Positions 1-10,631 of a stretch of 10,666 nucleotides of DNA are shown here, piece by piece. Where the stretch lies: positions 1-10,666 of the forward strand of contig CAKULN010000075.1 of assembly GCA_934667175.1 (NCBI GenBank). The letters run 5' to 3'. Within the stretch, counting starts at the first letter, position 1. Each line of letters begins with the position of its first letter. The position numbers were made by a program, and so were the translations under genes. Under the pieces are notes generated by a model, which saw nothing but the letters and a program-made list of their open reading frames with translations, made no database searches and was not told where the DNA came from. This DNA comes from an uncultured Bacteroidales bacterium (GTDB lineage: Bacteria > Bacteroidota > Bacteroidia > Bacteroidales > UBA932).

Positions 1-86
1 GAAAAACTTCAGTGTTGACCGCTTCTTCCAAGGAGGATAGCGGTGCTATCTGACTGAAGAAGCGGGAAGAAAATGAAGATTTTTTC
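1..86. other. Nested inverted-repeat (structured) segment at the left edge
   Basis: Three nested inverted repeats can be seen. The outer arm at 1-11 pairs with 74-86 with one bulge. The middle arm CCGCTTCTTC (19-28) pairs perfectly with GAAGAAGCGG (56-65). The inner hairpin GATAGC-GGT-GCTATC lies at 36-50. A competing pairing, CTTCAGT (7-13) with ACTGAAG (53-59), overlaps the middle stem. Read on the minus strand, that competing stem is followed directly by TTTTTC, like an intrinsic terminator downstream of the 65-residue gene. The element could be a terminator, an RNA switch or a short repeat. The window edge may cut it, and its function is not known. Confidence 0.5.
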
Positions 87-134
87 ACCTCAAAGAACAT
101 TTCAAATAAATCAAAACAGCTTCTAAGGTGATTG

Positions 135-332
135 CTACCACCTGGGGGATCTATTCACAGTGGTATTTGCCCCATCTTTATATGCGCCATAAAAATCATC
201 AACATAAAAGCCCATATCTCTCATCTCATCTCGAATTTTCTTTTGTTCCGACTTGTTAGAATTCACCTTGCGCTTAATTAACCGCATTAAGCTCGCACAT
301 TCAGACTTTGTTAAATAATTTTTCCCTTTCAT
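135..332 (-). CDS. Small protein of unknown function (65 aa)
   Basis: I do not recognise this protein. It has an ATG start and a TAG stop, and it begins 21 nt after the stop of the WYL regulator, so the two may share a transcript. The sequence is strongly basic in its first half (KGKNYLTK, LIKRKVNSNK, EQKKIRDEMRD), suggesting helices that could bind nucleic acid. It is followed by an aromatic-acidic patch (MGFYVDDFYGAY, about residues 40-51) and a polar tail. There is no signal peptide, membrane segment or cysteine cluster. The mixed helical pattern and the patch of Tyr, Phe and Asp look more like a real small protein than a random reading frame, but the length is short and no Shine-Dalgarno sequence is present. 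It could also be the remnant of a longer gene. Confidence 0.5.
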   Translation of the reverse strand: MKGKNYLTKSECASLMRLIKRKVNSNKSEQKKIRDEMRDMGFYVDDFYGAYKDGANTTVNRSPRW

Positions 333-353
333 AGAACTAATATTAATTAACGA

Positions 354-1244
354 TTATTTATTTCTCTCCAGAGCCGTGGCCCAGATGGCGTTCATCCGGT
401 CCCTGAGGGACTGAGGAGCCAGAATCTCGATTGAGGAGCTTCGGGAGAGGAGAGCCATCACGAAATCGTTGGTGATCTTCAGGCGAAGGGTCACTTCAAT
501 ATATTCATCAGTCATGGCAACGACCTTTTGGGAAGAATGAATGGGGAGGGTTTTGATGAAGCGGCCGTCCAATGGACTGAACCTTAAGCAGACGTCTTCA
601 ACGGGCATCCTCGGATCATCCCATATTCCGAAGCAATCGCGGAAAAGATTATCAGCGCGGACAGTTTCATCACGGATGAAATCCTCGTCAAGCACCTTGA
701 AGGATTTGAACCTGCCCAACTCGAAGCATTTCAAGACGCCATCAACCATCGCCACCAGATACCAACGATTCTGCGACTGCTTCAGGAAATACGGCTCGGC
801 GAGATATTCAGCCTCCTTGCCTCCAAGCCTTGGTAATGAATATGAAAAACGCACCTTGTGCCTTTGCTTTATCGACCTTAAGACTTTCTGAATATCAACG
901 CTGAACGTCATCCTCCTCTGTTCCGGAATGATGTAGTCACGTGTTCCGGAGTCCGAGCCAACAGTACTTATAATCTCGAACTCAGAAAGAAGTTCCTTGA
1001 ACCGATCGGTATAAACCGGGTCTCTGCCAACAATGTGATACCCTTTCCCTCTGACATTCTGAATCTCGATCCCGAACACTTCCTCAATGGTCTTGATGTT
1101 CCGCTGAAGAGTCCGCAAAGAATATGGTCCGTTCTCAGCCATCTCGCCTGACATGGCCTCCAGCAGGTCCTCTTTGCTGACATATTCACTGATGCCGCTG
1201 AGTTTGTTCACTATCGCGCTTAACAACCTGATTTGTTTAGACAT
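354..1244 (-). CDS. WYL-domain transcriptional regulator
   Basis: This is a predicted DNA-binding regulator of the YafY/WYL family, 296 aa from the chosen ATG. Residues 1-70 form a winged-helix DeoR-like domain (KQIRLLSAIVNKLSG at the start, then SLRTLQRNIKTIEEVFGI, then the wing RGKGYHIVG). A linker follows to about 118. The WYL domain runs from about 120 to 195 and carries the signature NRWYLVAMVDG (Trp161-Tyr162-Leu163). A C-terminal WCX-like extension occupies about 215-296. An in-frame TTG lies ten codons upstream at 1272-1274, but it sits upstream of the TATATTTG promoter element, so the ATG at 1244 is preferred. WYL domains usually sense a ligand, often a nucleotide or nucleic acid, and the family includes stress, CRISPR and defence regulators. 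The target here is unknown. Inverted repeats over the promoter suggest autoregulation. It is not divergent from the citrate operon. Confidence 0.85.
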   Translation of the reverse strand: MSKQIRLLSAIVNKLSGISEYVSKEDLLEAMSGEMAENGPYSLRTLQRNIKTIEEVFGIEIQNVRGKGYHIVGRDPVYTDRFKELLSEFEIISTVGSDSGTRDYIIPEQRRMTFSVDIQKVLRSIKQRHKVRFSYSLPRLGGKEAEYLAEPYFLKQSQNRWYLVAMVDGVLKCFELGRFKSFKVLDEDFIRDETVRADNLFRDCFGIWDDPRMPVEDVCLRFSPLDGRFIKTLPIHSSQKVVAMTDEYIEVTLRLKITNDFVMALLSRSSSIEILAPQSLRDRMNAIWATALERNK

Positions 1245-1255
1245 ATTCAGAAGTG

Positions 1256-1295
1256 TTTGTCGCAAATATAACAATCAAGAGCGACAAATTTTGTC
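1256..1295 (-). promoter_or_regulatory. Promoter and candidate operator of the WYL regulator
   Basis: On the minus strand TATATTTG (1263-1270) matches the Bacteroidota -7 consensus TAnnTTTG exactly and lies 18 nt before the ATG. A TTTG occurs upstream but only 14 nt away, nearer than the usual spacing of about 19, so the -33 box is uncertain. The element is flanked by a perfect 8-bp inverted repeat, TTTGTCGC (1256-1263) and GCGACAAA (1281-1288). The second arm is also part of a palindrome, GACAAA-T-TTTGTC (1283-1295). The half-site GACAAA therefore occurs three times around the -7 box, which fits binding by a dimeric regulator, plausibly the WYL protein itself. Confidence 0.5.
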
Positions 1296-1371
1296 ATCTT
1301 GGAGAAAAATGTATTGTAAAACACTGATTATAATATGGTGGAGCATCACACTATGACTCTCAACCAGTTAC

Positions 1372-1397
1372 AAAACAGCAGCCTTTCATTTAGGCTG
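1372..1397 (-). terminator. Possible intrinsic terminator for leftward transcription
   Basis: Read on the minus strand, a 6-bp stem CAGCCT/AGGCTG (1379-1384 and 1392-1397) with a 7-nt loop is followed by CTGTTTTG. The stem is short and the T-tract is only four residues. It lies about 350 nt past the icd stop and upstream of the WYL promoter, where the end of the citrate operon transcript would be expected. Confidence 0.35.
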
Positions 1398-1437
1398 GCA
1401 GCGTTTAGTAATATATTAATAATAAATAATTTAGCAA

Positions 1438-1640
1438 ACACAACTAACAACTTCGAAAAGTAACCCGGCAAATGAGCCTGTAAGCGACTCTGCGCATAGA
1501 ACGAAGACAAGCGTGGTATGGTGGATCTGGAGAAATGGGTTGAGCATTCGCAAGATTTGGCAGACTACGGTATAAGGTAACAGAAAAGAATTTCCAAACT
1601 TTGATAACGTGCAAAATTGGAAATTCTTTTCTGTTGCCGC
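1438..1640. other. Possible conserved non-coding or degenerate repeat element
   Basis: This part of the 500-nt gene-free stretch is less AT-rich than the block before it (1398-1437, almost pure A/T) and ends in the large inverted repeat at 1576-1638. Both strands carry open frames of only about 50-70 codons. The minus-strand one starts inside the inverted repeat, and neither looks like a known protein. The composition shift and the terminal hairpin suggest a small dispersed element or a non-coding RNA rather than random spacer. I have only a vague impression that similar sequence recurs in Bacteroidales and could not search for it. Confidence 0.25.
1576..1638. repeat. Large perfect inverted repeat downstream of icd
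   Basis: AACAGAAAAGAATTTCCAA (1579-1597) is the exact reverse complement of 1617-1635. The pairing extends three more pairs outward with one G-U, giving about 22 bp, and the loop is 19 nt (1598-1616). An intrinsic terminator stem is normally shorter and GC-rich, and no T-run follows here on the minus strand. It may act as a 3' stabilising or bidirectional terminator hairpin, or mark the end of a small mobile element. Confidence 0.8.
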
Positions 1641-1678
1641 CACTGTTTAGTGACGTTAATCAGTGTCATGGGCGGACA

Positions 1679-1703
1679 GTCGCTTCGACAGGCTCAGCGA
1701 CCG
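1679..1703. repeat. REP-like repeat copy downstream of icd
   Basis: This is a 25-nt copy of the short palindromic family with core TTCGACAGGCTCAGCGAC, bounded by GTCGC and GCGAC arms. Positions 1681-1703 are identical to 6237-6259 inside the citC-citG gene, and a second copy at 6331-6355 differs at one base. The copy lies about 40 nt past the icd stop, a typical place for REP-type elements. Confidence 0.75.
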
Positions 1704-1743
1704 ATATCACGGTCAATCCTGCGAACGCACGGGGCAGCCTTAA

Positions 1744-2952
1744 TTACGCGAGACGCTTTTCGAGGCGCTCGCGGATGGCGGAGATGAAGTCGGCGGAGTT
1801 CTTGACCTGTGGGGTGACGCCTTCCATGAGGTTGGCGAGGTCCTTGGTCACGATGCCTTCGTTGAGGGTGTCGAAGCAGGCGGCCTCAAGCTGGTCGGCG
1901 TAGTTCACAAGCTCAGGGAGGTTGTCCAGCTCGCCTCTCTTGCGGAACGCGCCGCTCCACGCGAAGATTGTGGCGATAGGGTTCGTGGAGGTCTCCTCAC
2001 CCTGGAGGTGCTTGTAGTAGTGACGGGTCACGGTGCCATGGGCGGCCTCATATTCATACTTGCCGTCAGGGCTGACGAGAACGGAGGTCATCATCGCGAG
2101 AGAACCGAAGGCGGTGGAGATCATGTCGCTCATCACGTCGCCGTCGTAGTTCTTGCATGCCCAGATGAAACCACCCTCGCTGCGCATCACACGTGCTACA
2201 GCGTCATCAATCAAGGTGTAGAAATACTCGATTCCGGCTGCGGCGAAAGCCTCCTTGTACTCAGCGAACACCTCCTCGAAGATCTCACGGAAACGTCCGT
2301 CGTACTTCTTGGCGATGGTGTCCTTGGTGGCGAACCAGATGCTCTGCTTCAGGTCAAGGGCGTACTTGAAACAAGCATGGGCGAAGGAACGGATCGAAGC
2401 ATCGGTGTTGTGCATTCCCTGAAGAACGCCTGGGCCCTTGAAGGTGTGGACGATCTGCTCCTCACGCTTGCCGCTCTCGCCTTCGAAGATGAGCTTGGCC
2501 ACTCCCGGCTCCTCAACGCGGATGTCAACACTCTTGTAGACATCACCGTAGGCGTGACGGGCGATGGTGATAGGCTTCTTCCAGAACTTCACGGCAGGAG
2601 AGATGGAAGGGATGGTGATAGGTGTGCGGAACACGGTGCCATCCAACATCGAACGGATGGTTCCGTTCGGGCTCTTCCACATCTGGTGCAGGTTGTACTC
2701 GGTCATACGCTTGGCGTTAGGAGTGATGGTGGCGCACTTCACGGCGACACCGTACTTCTTCGTGGCGTTGGCGGAGTCCACAGTCACCTGGTCGGCGGTC
2801 TCGTCACGGTGAACGAGGCCAAGGTCATAATATTCTGTCTTCAGATCAACAAATGGAATGATAAGTTCATCCTTAATCATTTTCCACAGGATCCTTGTCA
2901 TTTCATCACCATCCATCTCAACGAGAGGAGTGACCATCTGAATCTTTTTCAT
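1744..2952 (-). CDS. icd: NADP-dependent isocitrate dehydrogenase
   Basis: This cytoplasmic homodimeric enzyme oxidatively decarboxylates isocitrate to 2-oxoglutarate with NADP, and is reversible by reductive carboxylation. The 402-residue protein is full length and of the eukaryotic IDH1/IDH2 type, not the E. coli Icd type. Conserved stretches include VEMDGDEMTRI (11-21), VKCATITP (71-78), the substrate loop MWKSPNGTIR (91-100), ARHAYGD with Arg132 in the position of human IDH1 Arg132, the metal-binding LIDD (247-250) and NYDGDVMSD (268-276), and the NADP-binding AAHGTVTRHY (303-312). It is the last gene of the run, 92 nt after the hydratase gene. That gap holds a 13-bp hairpin and a TATATTCG resembling a -7 box, so separate transcription is possible. 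Local codon use favours GAG and TAC, except where GAATAT occurs. Confidence 0.97.
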   Translation of the reverse strand: MKKIQMVTPLVEMDGDEMTRILWKMIKDELIIPFVDLKTEYYDLGLVHRDETADQVTVDSANATKKYGVAVKCATITPNAKRMTEYNLHQMWKSPNGTIRSMLDGTVFRTPITIPSISPAVKFWKKPITIARHAYGDVYKSVDIRVEEPGVAKLIFEGESGKREEQIVHTFKGPGVLQGMHNTDASIRSFAHACFKYALDLKQSIWFATKDTIAKKYDGRFREIFEEVFAEYKEAFAAAGIEYFYTLIDDAVARVMRSEGGFIWACKNYDGDVMSDMISTAFGSLAMMTSVLVSPDGKYEYEAAHGTVTRHYYKHLQGEETSTNPIATIFAWSGAFRKRGELDNLPELVNYADQLEAACFDTLNEGIVTKDLANLMEGVTPQVKNSADFISAIRERLEKRLA

Positions 2953-2994
2953 AATTGAATATCAAAAATTAAAGTGTTTTACGAATATAATCTC

Positions 2995-3027
2995 AGGCCT
3001 GCGGACCATAACAAGGCCCGCAAGCCT
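2995..3027 (-). terminator. Hairpin between the hydratase gene and icd
   Basis: On the minus strand AGGCTTGCGGGCC pairs along 13 bp (with two G-U pairs) with GGTCCGCAGGCCT around a 7-nt loop TTGTTAT. No T-run follows, only GAGATTATATTCG. It sits 17 nt after the hydratase stop and 42 nt before the icd start. It could be a partial terminator, an RNA-processing or stability element that sets the ratio of the two enzymes, or part of the icd leader. Confidence 0.5.
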
Positions 3028-3044
3028 AAAGTGCAAAATTTCAA

Positions 3045-5291
3045 CTACTTGCTCTTCTGTGCCGCATAGAAGTTCATGAGACAGCCGTCAGCGAGGATCT
3101 CACGCTCGTCGGCGGTGAGGTTCTGGAAGTAAAGATGAATATCCTTGACTCCATCGGCGCAGATCACCTTGGCGTCAATCTCCTCCTTACCGGAAAGGAT
3201 GGCCTCGCGGATGCCAGGAACATAGACGAAATCGCCGGCTACATATTCAAAAGGAGTGTCCTTTGAGATTGTGAAAGGAACGATGCCCCAGTTGATGCAG
3301 TTGCTGCGGTAACGCTTGGTGGCATATTCATAGCAGATGTTGGCGTCGCCGCCGAGCACCTTCTGGCATGAAGCGGCCTGCTCGCGGGCTGAGCCGTCGC
3401 CTGGCTTGTTGGCGAACACGCATGAGCCGAATGAGGTGTTTTCCGGCTTCGCACCGACCTTCGCGAGAGCGTCAAGCACGTGCTGAGGGGTCTTGCCCTC
3501 GCGGCGCTCAAGGTCTTCGGCCTGGATTCTCTTGCTCAATCCGACATATTCAGGAACACGGCGGGAGAGAGCGAACTCGGAGAGTTTCAGAGGGTTGGAG
3601 CGGTAGCTTGAGGTTTCGCCGGACGGGATGAGCTCATCGGTCGTGGTGACTGGGTCGTGGATGACAGCGGCGAGTTCAAGGAGCATATTCTCCTCCATCG
3701 GGTACATCTTAGGCCAATCCTTGATGTTCGGACCGTAACGGAGCTCGACTGAAGGGTCTGCCTTGCCGAAGCCGTAGTAGATACGGCTCCTGTAGATGCG
3801 GTCATCGAAAGAATATGGCTTGTGGGTGTCCTCATATTCAATGTCGGTCGCGGCCGTGATGACTCCGCCGTTGGCTGCCGTCGCGGCGATGGAACGCGCG
3901 TCCATCAGGCAGACAAGTGAGATCTGCCCCTGGCCTGGCTTGGAGCCTTCGCGGTTAGGGAAGTTGCGGGTGGTGTGGCGGATTGAGAGCCCGTTGTTTG
4001 CAGGAACGTCTCCGGCACCGAAGCAAGGTCCGCAGAATGCCGGCTTGATCACAACACCGGCCTCAAGCAACTCTTCTGCGATATGGTTGCGTGTGGTCGC
4101 GAGATAGACAGGTGTTGACTGAGGGTAGGCGGACATCGTGAAGTAGTCGTTGCCGATGGTCTTTCCCTTCATGATCGCAGCGGCTTCGCTGAGGTTGTCG
4201 TAAGTACCTCCAGAGCAGCCGGCTATGATGGCCTGGTCAGCGAAAGCCTTACCGTTCTTAACCTTGCTCTCAAGGTCGATGGTGATCTTGTCTCCGAAGC
4301 GTTTCTTGGCATCTTCCTCTACCTTCTTGAGGATTCCCTCAGGGTCAGCCTGGAACTCGTGGATCGTGTAGGCGTTGGAAGGGTGGAAAGGAAGTGCGAT
4401 CATTGACTCCTGCTTGGAGAGGTCAATGCGGATCATAGAATCGTAGTAAGCGATCTCGCCAGGCTGGAGGGTCTTGTAAGCCTCCGGACGCTCGTGCATC
4501 TTGTAGTACTCCTCGACTTTCTCATCGGTGATCCAGATTGAGCTGAGGCAGGTGGTCTCGGTGGTCATCACGTCGATTCCGTTACGGAAATCGGTAGGGA
4601 GGGAAGCCACGCCAGGGCCGGCGAACTCAAGCACCTTGTTCTTCACGAAACCGTTCTCGAACACGGCCTTCACGAGGGAGATGGCCACATCATGAGGGCC
4701 GACACCCTTCTTAGGCTTGCCTTCGAGCCAAACCAGAACAACCTCCGGAGCGTTGATGTCCCAAGTGTTGTGGAGGAGCTGCTTCACGAGCTCACCGCCA
4801 CCTTCTCCGACACCCATGCAGCCGAGAGAGCCGTAGCGGGTGTGGCTGTCCGAACCGAGAATCATGCGACCGCAACCAGCTAGAGCCTCACGGACATATT
4901 GATGGATGACAGCCTGATTGGCAGGGACATAGATTCCGCCGTACTTCTTGGCCGCCGAGAGACCGAAGATATGGTCGTCCTCGTTGATGGTACCGCCGAC
5001 AGCGCACAGGGAGTTGTGGCAGTTGGTCATCGCATAAGGGATAGGGAACTTGTCAAGTCCGCTGGCGCGGGCTGTCTGGATAATTCCGACATAAGTGATG
5101 TCGTGTGAGGCCATGGCATCGAACCTGATGCGCATCTTCTTGCCTTTGCTTCCGTCCACATCGTGGGCGCGGAGGATTCTGTAGGCGATGGTGTTTTCGC
5201 GGGCCTCATCGGCAGACGGCATTCCTGCGGCATCGTTGACGATAGTCTTGCCATTTTTCAGGTAAACGCCATGTGGAATCAATTCTACCAT
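3045..5291 (-). CDS. Aconitase-family hydratase (aconitate hydratase, possibly YbhJ-like)
   Basis: This 748-aa 4Fe-4S protein of the aconitase superfamily would interconvert citrate and isocitrate, as its place between citrate lyase and icd implies. The three cluster cysteines are present: Cys359 (IAGCSGGTYDN), Cys420 and Cys423 (FCGPCFG). Also conserved are GSDSHT (146-151), His130, the arginines in TRNFPNREGS (442 and 447) and Ser634/Arg636 in GDGSAREQ. Several positions differ from mitochondrial aconitase. The CDH of the substrate site reads NCHN (90-93), so Asp100 has no clear equivalent. GSCTNSS reads AGCSGGT, Ser643 is Ala635, and TTDH reads TTDE. The protein resembles the less studied YbhJ-type hydratases more than AcnA or mitochondrial aconitase. 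Citrate activity is likely from context but not certain. The swivel domain is about 610-748, and the length is complete. Confidence 0.85.
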   Translation of the reverse strand: MVELIPHGVYLKNGKTIVNDAAGMPSADEARENTIAYRILRAHDVDGSKGKKMRIRFDAMASHDITYVGIIQTARASGLDKFPIPYAMTNCHNSLCAVGGTINEDDHIFGLSAAKKYGGIYVPANQAVIHQYVREALAGCGRMILGSDSHTRYGSLGCMGVGEGGGELVKQLLHNTWDINAPEVVLVWLEGKPKKGVGPHDVAISLVKAVFENGFVKNKVLEFAGPGVASLPTDFRNGIDVMTTETTCLSSIWITDEKVEEYYKMHERPEAYKTLQPGEIAYYDSMIRIDLSKQESMIALPFHPSNAYTIHEFQADPEGILKKVEEDAKKRFGDKITIDLESKVKNGKAFADQAIIAGCSGGTYDNLSEAAAIMKGKTIGNDYFTMSAYPQSTPVYLATTRNHIAEELLEAGVVIKPAFCGPCFGAGDVPANNGLSIRHTTRNFPNREGSKPGQGQISLVCLMDARSIAATAANGGVITAATDIEYEDTHKPYSFDDRIYRSRIYYGFGKADPSVELRYGPNIKDWPKMYPMEENMLLELAAVIHDPVTTTDELIPSGETSSYRSNPLKLSEFALSRRVPEYVGLSKRIQAEDLERREGKTPQHVLDALAKVGAKPENTSFGSCVFANKPGDGSAREQAASCQKVLGGDANICYEYATKRYRSNCINWGIVPFTISKDTPFEYVAGDFVYVPGIREAILSGKEEIDAKVICADGVKDIHLYFQNLTADEREILADGCLMNFYAAQKSK

Positions 5292-5327
5292 GATAAAATC
5301 AGTTTTGTGTTAAATGAATATAAGTGG

Positions 5328-7298
5328 TTAACAATTAATTATACTATCTACGAATATAGTCAGGGACAGCATGTCGGCGCTTCCGCCGGGCGAGATGTTC
5401 TCCCTGATAAAAACCTTGTTCAAAGACGACATCTCGGCCTCACTGAAGTCTTCCAGAAGCCTTGCGGCCTCGGACTTGGCGCGGGCGAGTCCCTCCGCTC
5501 CCCTTCTGTGGAGAATGTTGGTGTCGTCAAGAGTCGTCATTATGTGAAGCAGGGTCTTGTGACAGCGGTACGGATCGCTTTCCAAACTGCGGTAGTATGG
5601 CAGCCAGTCCTCGAACAGTTCTGGATATGCCGCACGGGCGTTCCCAAGAGCGCCGCCGACCTTGAAACTTCTCTTCGCCTCGGCTCCGTGCGTACCTTGG
5701 GCGAGCGGAATCTCAGATGCGACGCGGGACACAAGTTCCTTAAATGAATATGCAGACACAGATCCTGTTGTCGATGCCAGGTAGGAAGCCACCGCAACGG
5801 AAAGGCCGATGCAGAATAGAGCTCCTTTGTGGGTGTTCACTCCGCTGGTGGCTTTCAGCATGGCTTTTTCAGCCTCAATGCCGATTTCTTTTATCTTGGC
5901 CGGATCTATGTCTTTTGCGGACTCCACGACCAGTCTTGTCAGATAAGGTCTTAATGCTGAGATGCTTTTGGACATCAGAGTATAATCCATGTCTTTGTGG
6001 GCGCCGTTGTCCAGCTTGTCCACAAGACCCGGTTTCGGGGTTGTGTCGAGTTCCATCCGCAGCGCACGCTCAGCTAGATCCGCCACCAAGTAAGGGATGG
6101 TGGATTCGGGAATATATTCCATCGCCTCTTTGAGGTCGCCTTTGTCCAAGGCCTGCCTCAACGATGTGGCGCTGATCGGCTTGCCGTTCTGCTCAAGTCT
6201 TGGAATTTCAATGAAATCTATTCCGGCTGGACGGTGCGCTTCGACAGGCTCAGCGACCGTGGTTCGGCTAAGCTCACCAACCGTGGTTCGGCTAGGCTCA
6301 CCAACCGGACCCTGAGCCTGCCGAAGGGTCGTCGCTTCGACAAGCTCAGCGACCGGAGAAATTGGCTCAGCGACCACGGATGTATGCTCAGGATCCGATA
6401 CCTTTCGGTCACTGAGCCTGTCGAAGTGACCACTCTTCGCAGTGACCAAGGTTCTCGGCAAGATCTCCGCCATCAGCTCGTTGTATCGACGGGTTAGCGC
6501 ATCCTCCGGCTCGCTGCCGGCAAAACGCACCGTACCCCCAAGTGGCTTAGCGATGTGGTTCACGAACAAATCCAGATCAAGGGCGATCTGAGTGTCCGTG
6601 GCATCATCCAATTTCTTTAAGAAATATGTCGGGAAAGTCGCCGCCGAGATGGCGTAGTCACTGCCCTCACAGACGATCACATTGTCAAGTCCGGCACAAC
6701 CGGCCTCGATCATCGCCTTTCTCTCAGCGTAGGAGAAACGCGAGCGATCTTCCTTAACGACAATCACATAGAGATTGTCCACTTGCGAGGCGGCCTGCTC
6801 AATCAGCCAGCGATGCCCTTTCGTGAACGGATTGGCGTTCATCACAATCGCACCGTTCCTGCCCGTACGGGCAAGCGAAGCCAAATACCTCTCGTACTCC
6901 GATAGCCCTCCCCTGCCGTTCTCCATCAGAACAGCCTTCGGCGCAGACGCAAGCAACGAGAACCCGAGGCTTTTGAATATTCCCACGTTCTCCGGCTTGG
7001 TGAAAGCCTTGACCGACTCCCGGCCATCTTCACGGCCAAGAGCGATCAGACGGGACACAAGAATATTCATAAGCCCTTCGCTTCGAGCGGCTTCCGACAC
7101 AGCAACGCACTTGATGACATTGCCGTCAAGTCCGCCTCCCGCAAGGATTTCGTCTCCGTCCTCGTCTCGGCTGATGACAACATAGCGGTCCAGCGGGGCG
7201 AGTCTGAGTCCATTGGCGGAGAGGAAAGCCTCAACCCGTCTCCGGACAGAGTTCAGCGACAGCGGAACCTCGCTTATGTAGTGACGGTTATCGCACAT
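5328..7298 (-). CDS. Fused citrate lyase ligase (CitC) and triphosphoribosyl-dephospho-CoA synthase (CitG)
   Basis: This 656-aa protein serves citrate lyase maturation. Residues about 25-130 form a GNAT-like domain (VIKCVAVSEAARSEGLMN). Residues about 146-385 are the CitC nucleotidyltransferase, with NANPFTKGH (154-162) and ISATSLR (376-382); CitC acetylates the prosthetic group of CitD using ATP and acetate. Residues about 405-656 are CitG, with TPKPGLVDKLDNGAHKDMD (420-438), SGVNTHKGALF, DDTNILHRRG (591-600) and SPGGSADML; CitG makes 2'-(5''-triphosphoribosyl)-3'-dephospho-CoA from ATP and dephospho-CoA. About 70 residues (roughly 285-356) have no place in CitC and are translated REP-like repeats. 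The start overlaps citX by 11 nt, and the next gene begins 36 nt after the stop. CitC and CitG are usually separate proteins; the fusion known to me is CitX-CitG, as in Haemophilus. The reading frame is intact throughout. Confidence 0.92.
   Translation of the reverse strand: MCDNRHYISEVPLSLNSVRRRVEAFLSANGLRLAPLDRYVVISRDEDGDEILAGGGLDGNVIKCVAVSEAARSEGLMNILVSRLIALGREDGRESVKAFTKPENVGIFKSLGFSLLASAPKAVLMENGRGGLSEYERYLASLARTGRNGAIVMNANPFTKGHRWLIEQAASQVDNLYVIVVKEDRSRFSYAERKAMIEAGCAGLDNVIVCEGSDYAISAATFPTYFLKKLDDATDTQIALDLDLFVNHIAKPLGGTVRFAGSEPEDALTRRYNELMAEILPRTLVTAKSGHFDRLSDRKVSDPEHTSVVAEPISPVAELVEATTLRQAQGPVGEPSRTTVGELSRTTVAEPVEAHRPAGIDFIEIPRLEQNGKPISATSLRQALDKGDLKEAMEYIPESTIPYLVADLAERALRMELDTTPKPGLVDKLDNGAHKDMDYTLMSKSISALRPYLTRLVVESAKDIDPAKIKEIGIEAEKAMLKATSGVNTHKGALFCIGLSVAVASYLASTTGSVSAYSFKELVSRVASEIPLAQGTHGAEAKRSFKVGGALGNARAAYPELFEDWLPYYRSLESDPYRCHKTLLHIMTTLDDTNILHRRGAEGLARAKSEAARLLEDFSEAEMSSLNKVFIRENISPGGSADMLSLTIFVDSIINC
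6231..6446. repeat. Cluster of REP-like repeats inside citC-citG
   Basis: At least five related units lie here. Direct ones are at 6237-6259, 6260-6283, 6284-6307 and 6331-6355, and inverted ones are at 6308-6330 and 6407-6431, with fragments around 6363-6376. The units at 6260 and 6284 are a 24-bp tandem duplication differing at one base. Because 24 is divisible by three the frame is kept, and the protein shows an eight-residue repeat (GEPSRTTV, GELSRTTV). The translated pieces VAELVEATTLRQAQGP and VAEPVEA are the peptides expected when this repeat type is read through. Confidence 0.85.
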
Positions 7299-7791
7299 AG
7301 GCCTCGATCATTTCGTCTATCTTAGCCGTCAATTCAGCCATCGTGTGAGTTCGGTTGCGCATGCAGAAGCAAGCCTCGTTGTCACAGACAAGGCACTTCC
7401 TCGGACTTAGACCGATTGACTCTCTCGAAACGGGAACTCCGGCAGTGTCAATCACATCCAAATCGAAAAGACGGCCGAGAGGATGCGTGTCCTCAATCCG
7501 GCACGTCTCACGTTTGGCTTCCTCGTTGGTAAGAGGGGTGACAAGATAGGCCTCGTAACCGGTCGGCAGATCACGGAGTTCCAACTTCAGCATCGAACTT
7601 CCGAATGCCGAGACCAAAGCCGTGACGGCTGCCTGGGCGACAACAAGGGATTGCAGATTACGCTTGACCTTGCCCGGCATTATGACCGTAAGGCAAACCA
7701 GAGTCTTTCCAGGGTAGCTTTTCAGCAGTTCCTTCTGGAAAGAAGCCCGTTCCTCACGACTTGCCAGCAGATGGTCAAGCGTAATCTCCAT
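7288..7791 (-). CDS. citX: Apo-citrate lyase phosphoribosyl-dephospho-CoA transferase
   Basis: CitX transfers the phosphoribosyl-dephospho-CoA group made by CitG onto a serine of CitD, giving holo-acyl carrier protein. The protein is 167 aa from the ATG at 7791, a normal length. Family features are MPGKVKRN (38-45), THPLGRLFDLDVID (102-115), SRESIGLSPRKCL (122-134) and NRTHTMAEL near the end. Four cysteines spaced C-x2-C-x4-C-x-C (133, 136, 141, 143) could bind a metal, as in other CitX proteins. A TTG two codons upstream (7795-7797) is possible, but the ATG fits the family start. The gene overlaps citC-citG by 11 nt and lies 80 nt after citF, the largest gap within the citrate lyase genes. 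No Shine-Dalgarno sequence stands directly before the ATG. Confidence 0.93.
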   Translation of the reverse strand: MEITLDHLLASREERASFQKELLKSYPGKTLVCLTVIMPGKVKRNLQSLVVAQAAVTALVSAFGSSMLKLELRDLPTGYEAYLVTPLTNEEAKRETCRIEDTHPLGRLFDLDVIDTAGVPVSRESIGLSPRKCLVCDNEACFCMRNRTHTMAELTAKIDEMIEAYVR

Positions 7792-7840
7792 AAACAAGAA
7801 TCTATCTAATAATCAGAAGCAGTTTGACTTGATAATTTCT

Positions 7841-7847
7841 CCTCCTT
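7841..7847 (-). promoter_or_regulatory. Orphan Shine-Dalgarno-like sequence in the citF-citX gap
   Basis: AAGGAGG, the same string that precedes citF, occurs on the minus strand 49 nt before the citX ATG. No ATG, GTG or TTG follows at a usable distance. It may be chance, a pausing or stabilising site, or what remains of an earlier gene start. Confidence 0.35.
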
Positions 7848-7871
7848 AAAGGGAATCTTCAATAAATCAAA

Positions 7872-9407
7872 TTAGTCTTCGATGTTCATTATGACATCCA
7901 TGACGGAGCCGTCACGGTTCATCACGACTCCCACAACCTTGTCTCCGAACGGAAGCGGATCAGGAACACCGATGGACTTGAGGGCCAGTTTCTTAAGGTC
8001 ATGAATATCCACGATCTTCAAGCCGGCCTCCTTCAGGCGCTCGGCGATCTCAGGACGACGAGGATTGACAGCGATGCCATATTCAGTGACAACGACATCG
8101 ACTGTCGAGCCAGGAGTGATGAGGGTTGTGACCTCGTCCACCACGCAAGGGATGCGTCCGCGCATCAGAGGGCAGACAATGATTGAGAGAGCCGAGTCAG
8201 CCGCTGTGTCAGGGTGTCCGCCGACAGCGCCCCGGATGACTCCATCGCTGCCCACAAGCACATTGACATTGAAGTTGACATCCACCTCAAGAGCCGAGAG
8301 GATGACAATGTCGAGATAGTGGACGGCTGATCCAGGCTCGTCCGCACTGGCATATTCATTGGCGGAGACTCCCTTGTGGAACGGGTCGTTCTTGATGGAT
8401 TCGGCGGCCACGCGGTCGAATGACTGGACGTCGATGAGACGCTCGATAAGGCCTTCCTCGTGCATCTTGACCATGTGGGCGGTGATTCCTCCGAGCGCGA
8501 AGCTGGAATGGATGCCCCTCTTGATCATTTCCTCACGAATATACTTGACCGCGGCAAGAGAAGCTCCGCCGGATCCGGTCTGGATCGAGAAACCTTCCTT
8601 GAAATAGCCGCTGTTGACGATGACCTTGGCCGCGTTCATGGCGAGCAGGATGTCACGAGGGTTCTTGGTGTCGCGGATGGCTCCGGAAGAAATCTTGGAG
8701 GAATCACCGACAGAGTCCACGAGGACAACATAGTCCACATCGTGCTCGGAAATCGAGTTCGGAGTGTTCGGATAATCAACGAGATCGTCGGTGATGATCA
8801 CAACCTTGTCAGCGTACTGGGCGTCAGGCTTGGCGTAGCCGAGGGATCCGCAGATGGACTTGGCGTGGTCGGAGCGGGAGTAACCGCTGGCGTTGCCGGC
8901 AGGGTCGCTGGAAGAGGCTCCAAGGAAAGCGACATCAATGTGGAGATCTCCGTTGGCTATGGCGCTTCCACGTCCACCGTGACTGCGGAACACAACCGGC
9001 TCCTCCATCAGACCGTGAGAAATCTCCTTGGCGAGTTCTCCACGAAGTCCTGAGGTCGAGATCTTTGTGATCACCCCGTTCTTGATGTGGTCGATCAGCG
9101 GGGCATGAACGTCCGAAAGGCTGGATGCAGCGAGGTGGAGATTCTTGAACCCCATCTCGGCCAGTTTGCCCACGACCATATTCACAACCTTGTCTCCGCC
9201 TCTGAAATGGTGGTGGAAAGATATTGTCATTCCGTCCTTGAGGCCGCTGAGCCTGATGGCATCCTCAAGCGTGACCACCTTTGACTGAACCTTCTGGAGA
9301 TCCTTGCGGAATGTAGTGTTCTTCGGGGTCTCTCCTGAATACACCTTCTTTCCCATCGCGGCTGCCGCCTTACCTACAAGCGCAGCCCTTTCCTTTATAT
9401 TACTCAT
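7872..9407 (-). CDS. citF: Citrate lyase alpha subunit (citrate CoA-transferase)
   Basis: CitF swaps acetate on the acyl carrier protein for citrate, releasing acetate and giving citryl-ACP. It works in the cytoplasmic CitDEF complex. The 511-aa protein is full length. Visible family features are KDLQKVQSKVVTLEDAI (about 35-51), the glycine-rich MTISFHHHFRGGDKVVNMV (60-78), AFLGASSSDPAGNASG (160-175), the GSGGASLAAVKY motif (278-289), FALGGIT, and TEYGIAVNPRRPEIAERLK (441-459). It ends in MNRDGSVMDV (496-505), like the DGS-V-DV end of other CitF proteins. The start overlaps the citE stop by 8 nt and is preceded by AAGGAGG with a 6-nt spacer, the only clear Shine-Dalgarno sequence before a gene in this window. 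Confidence 0.97.
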   Translation of the reverse strand: MSNIKERAALVGKAAAAMGKKVYSGETPKNTTFRKDLQKVQSKVVTLEDAIRLSGLKDGMTISFHHHFRGGDKVVNMVVGKLAEMGFKNLHLAASSLSDVHAPLIDHIKNGVITKISTSGLRGELAKEISHGLMEEPVVFRSHGGRGSAIANGDLHIDVAFLGASSSDPAGNASGYSRSDHAKSICGSLGYAKPDAQYADKVVIITDDLVDYPNTPNSISEHDVDYVVLVDSVGDSSKISSGAIRDTKNPRDILLAMNAAKVIVNSGYFKEGFSIQTGSGGASLAAVKYIREEMIKRGIHSSFALGGITAHMVKMHEEGLIERLIDVQSFDRVAAESIKNDPFHKGVSANEYASADEPGSAVHYLDIVILSALEVDVNFNVNVLVGSDGVIRGAVGGHPDTAADSALSIIVCPLMRGRIPCVVDEVTTLITPGSTVDVVVTEYGIAVNPRRPEIAERLKEAGLKIVDIHDLKKLALKSIGVPDPLPFGDKVVGVVMNRDGSVMDVIMNIED

Positions 9408-10293
9408 AAACTTCCTCCTTTGTTAATATGCCCGAAGCAATTGCAAGGTCAATGGTGCGCTGCGCCCTGATGACGACAGGACGGTCAACCATCTTTCCGT
9501 TCACAGCGATGACACCAGAGCCGCGTTTCTCGGCCTCCTTGATGGCTGCGAGAATCTTCTTGGCCTTTTCTATGGCCTTCTCGGTCGGTGCGAACACCTC
9601 GTTCACGATCTGGATCTGACGAGGATTGATGATGGACTTGCCGTCGAATCCGAGGGTTTTGATGAGTTCGACCTCCTTGCGGAAAGTCTCCATGTCATCG
9701 AGGTTTGAATATACCGTGTCAAGGGCGTCAATCCCGGCAGCCCTGGCTGCCACCACGATGGTCTCGCGGGCATAAAGGAGTTCGGCTCCACCCGGAGTGC
9801 GCTGCGTTTTGAGGTTGGCGCAGTAGTCCTCGGCTCCGAGGGCGATACCCATCATCCTCTTGGAGGCCTTGGCGATGGCGAAGGCGTTGCAGATACCCTC
9901 CGCGCTTTCGATGGCGGCCATCATGCGGGTTCTTCCCAGGCAGCCTATCTCTTTCTCTACTTTCTCAATCTCTGCCTCAAGCTCACGGACCTCATCTGCG
10001 GTCTCGGTCTTAGGCATGCGGATCACCTGCACACCGGCCTTGACGACAGCCTCGACATCCTTGTGGCCGTAAGGGGTGCTGAGCGGATTGATGCGGACAA
10101 CCATTTCGGTGTCACCGTAGTCTATTGATTTCAGTGCATTATAGACGAGCAAACGAGCTGCATCTTTTTCGGCCATCGTCACGGAGTCCTCCAGGTCGAG
10201 CATGATCGAGTCCGGCCCGTAGATGAAGGCATCCTGCATCATTCCGGGATTGTTGCCCGGAACGAACATCATTGTTCTTCTTAATCTTTCCAT
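9400..10293 (-). CDS. citE: Citrate lyase beta subunit (citryl-ACP lyase)
   Basis: CitE cleaves citryl-ACP into acetyl-ACP and oxaloacetate, a magnesium-dependent retro-aldol step. The 297-aa protein belongs to the HpcH/HpaI aldolase family and is a normal length. Features are RRTMMFVPGNNP (5-16), the phosphate- and metal-binding LDLEDSV (33-39 region), VVRINPLSTPYG with Arg67, RMPKTE (92-97), AAIESAEG with metal ligand Glu129, and GAEDYCANL with Asp156. GFDGKSIINPRQI (215-227) and the C-terminal helical segment are also typical. It begins 12 nt after citD and its last codons overlap citF, so the three subunits are probably translationally coupled. A related protein, CitE-like malyl-CoA lyase, is unlikely because citD and citF are adjacent. 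Confidence 0.97.
   Translation of the reverse strand: MERLRRTMMFVPGNNPGMMQDAFIYGPDSIMLDLEDSVTMAEKDAARLLVYNALKSIDYGDTEMVVRINPLSTPYGHKDVEAVVKAGVQVIRMPKTETADEVRELEAEIEKVEKEIGCLGRTRMMAAIESAEGICNAFAIAKASKRMMGIALGAEDYCANLKTQRTPGGAELLYARETIVVAARAAGIDALDTVYSNLDDMETFRKEVELIKTLGFDGKSIINPRQIQIVNEVFAPTEKAIEKAKKILAAIKEAEKRGSGVIAVNGKMVDRPVVIRAQRTIDLAIASGILTKEEVYE
9414..9420 (-). promoter_or_regulatory. Shine-Dalgarno sequence of citF
   Basis: AAGGAGG on the minus strand lies 6 nt before the citF ATG, inside the 3' end of citE. It is notable because the other accepted genes lack one, which fits a Bacteroidota host. It supports the chosen citF start and may secure extra alpha-subunit translation. Confidence 0.6.
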
Positions 10294-10305
10294 AACTGTA
10301 GATGA

Positions 10306-10584
10306 TTATGCCCAAACATCCTTACCTGTGGCGCGCACCGCGGCCGCGGTCACCCTCGCGCGGATCGTGCAGTCACGGGCACCCTTGTCAACCGCTTTGA
10401 TGTCGGCGTCCTCAAGGCCAAATTCGGTGAGCGTCTCCTCAATGACCTTGCGGATCTGCCTGCCAAACTGTGCGGCTACAGAACTGTCGAGGTCGATGTG
10501 CAGACCTTTCGTCTCTGCCGGGGCGATCTGGATCATGATGTCACCTGACTCCAGCGTTCCGGCTACAGCGTTCTTTACTTCCAT
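10306..10584 (-). CDS. citD: Citrate lyase gamma subunit (acyl carrier protein)
   Basis: CitD is the small acyl carrier of citrate lyase and holds the phosphoribosyl-dephospho-CoA thiol arm. The 92-aa protein is complete and close to other CitD proteins in length. The N-terminal KNAVAGTLESGDIMIQIAP matches the family, and Ser13 in AGTLESGD is the expected attachment site (Ser14 in E. coli numbering). Further signatures are SSVAAQFGRQIR (34-45) and DKGARDCTIRARV (66-78). It is first in the run, with citE 12 nt downstream. The leader within the window has an inverted repeat around 10617-10631, but I found no convincing promoter, so the promoter or further operon genes may lie to the right of the window. 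Confidence 0.96.
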   Translation of the reverse strand: MEVKNAVAGTLESGDIMIQIAPAETKGLHIDLDSSVAAQFGRQIRKVIEETLTEFGLEDADIKAVDKGARDCTIRARVTAAAVRATGKDVWA

Positions 10585-10616
10585 AGCGAAATGTGCGATA
10601 AAAAAGTCATCAGTGT

Positions 10617-10631
10617 CTCTGAATATCAGAG
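10617..10631. promoter_or_regulatory. Inverted repeat upstream of citD
   Basis: CTCTGA-ATA-TCAGAG has perfect 6-bp arms and a 3-nt centre and lies 32 nt before the citD ATG. It contains one GAATAT. It could be an operator or a small leader hairpin for the citrate lyase operon, but a palindrome this short can also arise by chance. Confidence 0.3.

Follow-up and report, generated by a model that had tools for sequence, protein, structure and literature searches.

A DNA word, GAATAT, that is very abundant genome-wide in certain species of a gut Bacteroidales genus

The operon and its GAATAT copies

The stretch analyzed here in full, referred to as the window (10,666 nucleotides of contig CAKULN010000075.1, assembly GCA_934667175.1, from an uncultured Bacteroidales bacterium of the UBA932 lineage), contains a Bacteroidales operon for a WYL-domain protein, icd, acn, a citC-citG fusion, citX, citF, citE, and citD, with all genes on the minus strand (Table 1). 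Throughout this operon the six-base word GAATAT is strongly over-represented. An exact count gave 35 copies (17 on the plus strand and 18 on the minus strand, 31 in genes and four between genes) and 12 copies of the 8-mer TGAATATG (two plus, 10 minus). This was in agreement with a first-pass annotation of the same DNA, which had reported about 35 copies split 17 and 18 between the strands, in genes and gaps, and 12 copies of the full motif; its estimate of ∼54% G+C was slightly high (53.1% measured). The expectation given there, about four copies of GAATAT and fewer than one of the full motif, was reproduced by dinucleotide-preserving shuffles (n = 200), with means of 3.63 (maximum 11) and 0.24 (maximum 3), respectively. 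By a second-order Markov score, GAATAT was the top 6-mer of the window (35 versus 5.72 expected), and with a Poisson tail of 1.2e-16 its excess outlasts correction for the choice among ∼2,080 words. TATTCA, and not GAATAT, ranked first when the score was of maximal Markov order and thus conditioned on the 5-mers within the word itself. The density of GAATAT is 3.3 per kb in the window and 1.1–2.6 per kb in the six samples from word-rich genomes that are described below.

Within genes, the 31 copies compare with 6.65 after synonymous codon shuffling (2,000 shuffles, maximum 16). All six classes of phase and orientation hold the word, each above the codon-shuffle expectation (some with n = 2), and the different frames pointed out earlier (GAA TAT, GAG AAT ATG, and GGA ATA TTC) are all present. 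Among permissive sites, at which the amino acids allow GAATAT on either strand and in any phase, 31 of 61 are filled, compared with 13 of 353 for seven control words of the same composition. Outside Glu-Tyr pairs, GAA accounts for 63 of 215 Glu codons and TAT for 38 of 87 Tyr codons in the window genes. The statement that the word overrides codon preference in icd also held: TAC outnumbers TAT 12 to 5 and GAG outnumbers GAA 22 to 8, and two of the five Glu-Tyr pairs are written GAATAT. The strand imbalance of TGAATATG is accompanied by the uniform orientation of the genes, most of its 10 minus-strand copies being Glu-Tyr codons. A codon-pair, amino-acid, or chance effect in a single operon would fit the spelling of Glu-Tyr as GAATAT in 12 of 17 cases over the eight genes and the high frequency of the Glu-Tyr pair itself in the window (17, observed/expected 2.24). 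However, the excess is also found in antisense and in other frames, so it is not a codon-pair effect of one frame; it is further present between genes in four of the five word-rich genomes counted and genome-wide in many relatives, and an explanation of this kind is hardly credible.

Table 1. Genes of the window and positions of the word
Feature	Gene or location	Reading	Coordinates	Strand
Carrier gene	WYL/WCX-domain protein		354..1274	-
Carrier gene	icd, isocitrate dehydrogenase		1744..2952	-
Carrier gene	acn, aconitase		3045..5291	-
Carrier gene	citC-citG fusion		5328..7298	-
Gene, no copy	citX		7288..7797	-
Carrier gene	citF		7872..9407	-
Carrier gene	citE		9400..10293	-
Gene, no copy	citD		10306..10584	-
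GAATAT	WYL gene	Glu-Tyr	501..506	-
GAATAT	WYL gene	GGA ATA	623..628	-
GAATAT	WYL gene	Glu-Tyr	804..809	-
TGAATATG	WYL gene	antisense	837..844	+
GAATAT	WYL gene	antisense	890..895	+
GAATAT	WYL gene	antisense	1120..1125	+
TGAATATG	WYL gene	Glu-Tyr	1181..1188	-
TGAATATG	WYL gene	Leu-Asn-Met	1242..1249	-
TGAATATG	icd	Glu-Tyr	2049..2056	-
GAATAT	icd	Glu-Tyr	2830..2835	-
GAATAT	intergenic icd/acn		2957..2962	+
GAATAT	intergenic icd/acn		2983..2988	+
GAATAT	acn	antisense	3137..3142	+
TGAATATG	acn	Glu-Tyr	3242..3249	-
TGAATATG	acn	Glu-Tyr	3323..3330	-
TGAATATG	acn	Glu-Tyr	3545..3552	-
GAATAT	acn	Glu-Asn-Met	3685..3690	-
GAATAT	acn	antisense	3811..3816	+
TGAATATG	acn	Glu-Tyr	3833..3840	-
GAATAT	intergenic acn/citC-citG		5316..5321	+
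GAATAT	citC-citG	antisense (ATA TTC)	5352..5357	+
TGAATATG	citC-citG	antisense	5745..5752	+
GAATATATTC	citC-citG	two overlapping copies, opposite strands	6110..6119	both
GAATATTC	citC-citG	two overlapping copies, opposite strands	6975..6982	both
GAATATTC	citC-citG	two overlapping copies, opposite strands	7061..7068	both
GAATAT	citF	antisense	8003..8008	+
TGAATATG	citF	Glu-Tyr	8078..8085	-
TGAATATG	citF	Glu-Tyr	8351..8358	-
GAATAT	citF	antisense	8537..8542	+
TGAATATG	citF	Val-Asn-Met	9177..9184	-
GAATAT	citE	antisense	9707..9712	+
GAATAT	intergenic upstream of citD		10621..10626	+

The densest cluster lies in the WYL-domain gene (354–1274; 921 bases), where eight copies occupy several frames and lie in either orientation. 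The window also contains a family of short repeats (CGCTTCGACAGGCTCAGCGACC and variants), which lie in frame within citC-citG between the CitC and CitG domains (6230–6430) and recur downstream of icd (1680–1710). Their translation gives filler of the EPVEA/TLRQAQGP type, which occurs in other genomes as well. An Rfam search of the window gave no match.

GAATAT in the genomes of relatives

Related loci were gathered via citF, and among the window and the best 80 of 583 confirmed loci the GAATAT ratio was highest in the window (9.4), followed by L073 (5.1). Whole-genome pattern counts covered 12 genomes, 299 genomes from the family of G002, and 400 from the genus of G001, the nearest relative of the window (both sets drawn from larger groups); these are raw counts without correction for base composition, and intermediate values in AT-richer genomes may be ordinary. 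In 20 of the 400 genomes TGAATATG occurs 500–1,488 times, with 4–50 occurrences of the reversed-word control, and many others have 20–60 copies; forward and reverse counts of TGAATATG are similar in the tallies of these 400 genomes. The top five genomes (2.3–3.0 Mb) contain 1,237–1,488 copies with 10–32 for the control: G161 (1,488 in 3.0 Mb; control 31), G263 (1,445; 32), G183 (1,318; 28), G453 (1,300 in 2.3 Mb; 10), and G639 (1,237; 31). The word is thus far above its control in a set of species. Together with synonymous codon shuffling, these counts support the earlier proposal that it is a genome-wide signature word selected for itself.

For codon-level analyses, samples were formed from the first contigs (≤20 kb each) of genomes that were for the most part picked from the two extremes of the whole-genome counts and are termed high and low. 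Open reading frames (ORFs) containing N were excluded from codon counts, and the G263 sample was left out (six short contigs, probably masked, with 18.9% G+C when every letter is counted). In all six high samples GAATAT was the top or joint-top 6-mer under codon shuffling, with observed versus expected numbers of 258 versus 124.5 (G161), 256 versus 130.3 (G183), 178 versus 77.2 (G003), 231 versus 72.2 (G453), 343 versus 155.0 (G639), and 34 versus 7.8 (G402); the lows gave 18 versus 21.2 (G314), 19 versus 20.4 (G545), and 9 versus 10.7 (G291). Permissive sites were filled at 24.7–38.3% in the high samples (G453 231/617, G639 340/887, G161 258/701, G183 255/668, G402 34/120, G003 178/720), at 12.4% in G001 (69/557), and at 3.7–9.5% in the lows (G314 18/211, G545 19/201, G291 9/246), compared with 0–12.5% for seven control words throughout. 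One class in G453, sense phase 2, was not enriched (14 versus 13.5). Between genes, observed/expected numbers were 33/13.7 in G453, 62/28.7 in G639, 57/21.5 in G183, and 41/24.1 in G161; the excess was weak in G003 (22/18.4) and absent in G001 (12/15.4). The observed/expected ratio of the Glu-Tyr pair (G183 1.41, G453 1.28, G639 1.19, G161 1.08, G402 1.04, G003 1.03; G001 0.88; lows G314 1.01, G545 0.86, G291 1.11) gives only a hint of an amino-acid effect. A search of the three lows for a substitute word found none of comparable strength, and G001 has other over-represented words but no equivalent of GAATAT.

Two cases of word avoidance were also noted under codon shuffling. In the G001 sample (L091–L100, L001), words containing CATG are strongly avoided (CATGGC 2 versus 70), as under a CATG restriction system, and CCTTAA/TTAAGG is strongly under-represented in G003 (L081–L090; 16 versus 71.3) and G453 (L134–L145; 12 versus 64.8).

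Form, orientation, and neighbors of the word

Codon-controlled analysis of the flanks indicated that T or G is favored before the word and G, then C, after it, with A under-used on both sides. The best form is T/G-GAATAT-G/C, with six fixed bases; the flanking frequencies in G453 are 0.56 for T and 0.48 for G, and other samples are weaker or similar. The opposed double word GAATATTC exceeds its shuffled expectation 2.4–12 fold in the window (2 versus 0.19) and in the six high samples (G453 16/2.5, G402 6/0.5, G639 18/5.25, G161 17/3.75, G183 12/5.0, G003 17/2.25), and is not in excess in the lows (0 versus 1.35) or in G001 (1 versus 2.2), which indicates that each orientation counts. In a test for strand bias, as called for in the first-pass annotation, no polarity was found over five genomes, with 757 copies on the G-rich and 730 on the C-rich strand and 650 in sense and 602 in antisense; individual genomes lean either way, and on these draft contigs the skew is noisy in stretches of ≤20 kb.

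The orientation data bear on the possibility that GAATAT is the binding site of an abundant chromosomal protein, such as a nucleoid organizer, an enzyme of DNA repair or recombination, or a brake on an exonuclease in the manner of Chi, with many sites selected and no involvement of uptake. The occurrence of the word genome-wide, within and between genes, fits such a protein, and its scarcity in a mobile island (described below) also suits a mark of the core genome. The orientation of Chi is biased with replication, and FtsK-orienting polar sequences (KOPS) and other architecture-imparting sequences, which are likewise short and over-represented genome-wide, are strand-polarized; GAATAT, in contrast, has no polarity relative to GC skew or genes. 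Like Chi words, which are short recombination signals (PMC8022716), GAATAT is a short, frequent genomic word, but it is AT-rich and strong in only part of a genus, whereas Chi is described in the same paper as well conserved in Enterobacteriaceae. Filling about half of the possible sites in the window would, moreover, need selection at each of thousands of sites. We therefore regard a chromosomal binding site as doubtful.

Among one-mismatch neighbors of the word, GAGTAT (0.64), GAATAC (0.60), and GTATAT (0.60) are depleted in the pooled highs relative to the lows, and GGATAT slightly so (0.81). Most other neighbors are not depleted, and TAATAT (2.23) and GCATAT (1.68) are higher, on small counts in the low genomes. 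For GAATAC and GAGTAT, the window shows the strongest depletion and G453 a clear one. This pattern is in keeping with more than one type of mutation having converted synonymous positions to the word. A context-dependent bias of mutation or repair that yields GAATAT without any function would likewise deplete GAATAC and GAGTAT, as if converted, and would act on both strands and in coding and non-coding DNA, as observed. A single mismatch process, however, should deplete one class of neighbors, and the three depleted words differ from GAATAT at three positions. In G453, furthermore, 62 of 99 Ile-Phe pairs are spelled ATA TTC, and DNA of a mobile island in a high genome is unconverted, although its young age could explain this. 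Pure mutation bias is thus an unlikely source of the word.

Orthologous sites and descent

The comparison of orthologous sites covered 15 of the 31 coding sites of the window, located in acn, icd, citF, and citE; citC-citG was left out, and none of the eight WYL-gene sites could be matched in the 23 loci compared. Where the amino acids are conserved at the orthologous positions, the word was present in 32 of 68 cells from high genomes, 10 of 53 from low genomes, and 5 of 69 from unclassified genomes, shared ancestry not being removed from these numbers. The cleanest site is citF base 1323, which reads GAATAT in six of six highs, in none of four lows, and not in G001; base 1740 of acn is among the sites at which lows also carry the word.

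In the acn tree, the window groups with G001 (99/95) and G385 (98/96), apart from seven genomes with >300 copies, and in the rpoB tree the seven highs in which this gene was found form one clade (91/93). G001 was classed as low, with an intermediate whole-genome count of 190 TGAATATG (control 18) and the weak filling of sites given above. The nearest relative of the window is therefore weakly enriched, and the trait varies between close kin. One possibility is a separate gain of the same word in the lineage of the window, another an ongoing loss in G001; the presence of the same word in this lineage and in the high clade favors a shared or transferred reader.

Word-poor DNA and candidate readers

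A screen of 383 ORFs from four high samples for genes free of the word identified at least 14 in which five or more sites were possible and all of them stood empty; ten of these genes were scanned. Four of these ten adjoin each other in G639, on L151. Bases 1–11,000 of L151 contain 31 copies of GAATAT and bases 11,001–20,000 contain four. Divided by genes, bases 1–9,668 (five genes) have 31 copies, and the nine ORFs of bases 9,801–19,824 have three copies inside them. The latter form a mobile island nearly free of the word. It encodes a tyrosine integrase and a DUF3987/PriCT_2 protein as well as a restriction-modification system of the DpnII type, with a DpnII endonuclease and DNA methylases. 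The fetched stretch ends before the island does, and the gene next to the island is presumably mnmE.

Genes for possible readers were searched for in ten high and ten low draft genomes. Such drafts can miss genes (rpoB was found in 14 of 20), which weakens every absence reported here. The methyltransferase family PF01555 had matches above the cut-off in three highs and six lows, PF02086 in two and three, PF07669 in six and six, and PF02384 in five and three. G453, G402, G431, and G294 had no match over the cut-off to any of the four, so none of these families is common to the ten highs (C5 and other families were not searched). Weak PF01555 matches in four highs were considered as a common methyltransferase and rejected, as we take these proteins to be the housekeeping rRNA methylase RlmD.

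These searches are relevant to the mechanism proposed for the highly iterated palindrome 1 (HIP1) of cyanobacteria, in which the word is modified by an orphan DNA methyltransferase, and mismatch repair coupled to this modification acts as a ratchet that drives mutations towards the word. GAATAT and HIP1 with its alternates (GCGATCGC) are both genome-wide words with a density near or above one per kb that are absent or weak in some relatives, and the adenine at position 5 of the 6-mer is placed as in methylation sites of the bacteriophage exclusion (BREX)/MmeI type. HIP1, however, is a GC-rich palindrome that generally has cognate methyltransferases, whereas GAATAT is AT-rich, asymmetric, and not palindromic, and the highs have none of the four searched families in common. 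For GAATAT such a ratchet is therefore quite unlikely. The ratchet is Elhai's model for HIP1, a word that is itself absent or replaced in some relatives (PMC4390886).

For an uptake machinery, the type IV pilus secretin (PF00263) was found in none of the 20 draft genomes, with control rings in six of 14. The inner-membrane channel ComEC (PF03772) was present in all 20, high and low alike. In the ComEC tree all ten highs fall in one clade (86/99). A link between ComEC and the word based on this tree was rejected, because rpoB groups seven highs likewise and the ComEC clade thus reflects the kinship of the species. The neighborhood of ComEC (L266–L284) differs between nine highs and ten lows, with a sugar-permease-like neighbor cluster in nine of nine highs and none of ten lows, which is probably due to kinship as well.

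Discussion

GAATAT is a DNA-level word, extremely common throughout the chromosomes of certain species in one gut Bacteroidales genus. It lies on both strands and in most or all reading phases, and synonymous codons are used against local preference to write it. We have very high confidence that the word itself is favored at the level of DNA. As to its role, our tentative preference, held at somewhat below even confidence, is that GAATAT marks self DNA and is read during DNA uptake or recombination. A putative sequence-preferring reader protein, part of the pathway for competence and recombination of ComEC/DprA type in Bacteroidota, would favor word-bearing DNA, and this pathway would work without the type IV pilus secretin. 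Word-bearing fragments from kin would replace word-less ones, so that the word would accumulate at permissive sites by the combined effect of biased uptake and selection, and foreign DNA lacking the word would be disfavored. Accumulation of uptake words by such a drive has been argued in PMC1939737. A self-word of this kind would explain the asymmetry of GAATAT, its lack of polarity, its scarcity in a mobile island, and its accumulation from several neighbors. In a narrower form, it is possible though not probable that a clade of Bacteroidota has a self-word read by an uptake or recombination machine independent of both a type IV pilus secretin and DNA methylation.

Several observations weigh against a self-DNA mark read in uptake or recombination. 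With no secretin found, there is no sign of the pilus route by which known uptake sequences work, and since ComEC is also present in the ten lows, it does not predict the word. The core of six bases with weak flanks is shorter than known uptake sequences. One-mismatch neighbors show no broad enrichment, and GAATAC and GAGTAT are not depleted in G003 (0.99 and 1.07), nor GAATAC in G161 (0.99). A test for spacing bias, as called for in the first-pass annotation, had a mixed outcome: filled sites <300 bp apart are rarer than expected in G003 (44 pairs versus 70.5) and G453 (107 versus 128.2), but G639, G161, and G183 have no deficit or an excess. The word-poor island of L151 illustrates a single mobile element and is not a survey. 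Other scanned genes without the word encode a SusD-like protein, an AAA/DUF4143 ATPase, a weak match to an ATPase, and ORFs of no family; two unscanned ones presumably encode the housekeeping proteins asparaginyl-tRNA synthetase and Era. The number of genes lacking the word exceeds chance in G639 (12 versus 3.6) but hardly in G453 (4 versus 3.2). On the other side, a screen in Riemerella, which also belongs to Bacteroidota, found ComEC, DprA, ComF, and RecA to be essential for transformation, along with four proteins without homology to known machinery (PMC8459023), so the absence of a secretin does not exclude uptake.

The closest comparison is with the DNA uptake sequences (DUS) of Neisseriaceae and the uptake signal sequences (USS) of Pasteurellaceae, which have cores of 9–12 bases and are taken up by a type IV pilus/secretin machine. 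GAATAT is similarly short and asymmetric, with many copies on both strands in genes and gaps, genome-wide numbers far above expectation, and ComEC encoded in the genomes; it differs in its core of six bases with weak flanks and in the lack of a detected secretin. DUS and USS are atypically distributed in mobile elements (PMC7371117), as GAATAT is scarce in the one island examined, and their distribution follows lineage (PMC3630211), which we count as shared with GAATAT. For DUS and USS, inverted pairs at terminators and a preference for the ends of genes are also described (PMC2346458). The three analogies drawn in the first-pass annotation hold only in part: HIP1 fails on the palindrome, with none of the four methyltransferase families searched in the drafts being common to the highs, Chi fails on polarity, and for a classical uptake sequence no secretin was found in the drafts. 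The word resembles an uptake sequence or HIP1 in the way it would work, but it is assigned to neither, because defining features were tested and not found.

To our knowledge, genome-wide words of this strength are known from few groups, and a literature search by title and abstract, partial in coverage and no proof of absence, yielded no report of GAATAT or of any signature word in Bacteroidales. That uncultured Bacteroidales of the gut have such a word, with no sign of either of the two best-known mechanisms, points to a novel DNA-reading protein, and high and low species within one genus provide a natural comparison for finding its gene. If GAATAT is a self mark, it would represent a genome-wide type of mark with an evolutionary origin of its own, with up to half of the synonymously possible sites filled. 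In metagenomes, the word could help to distinguish core DNA from that of mobile elements, and it could serve as a transformation handle for these bacteria should it govern uptake.

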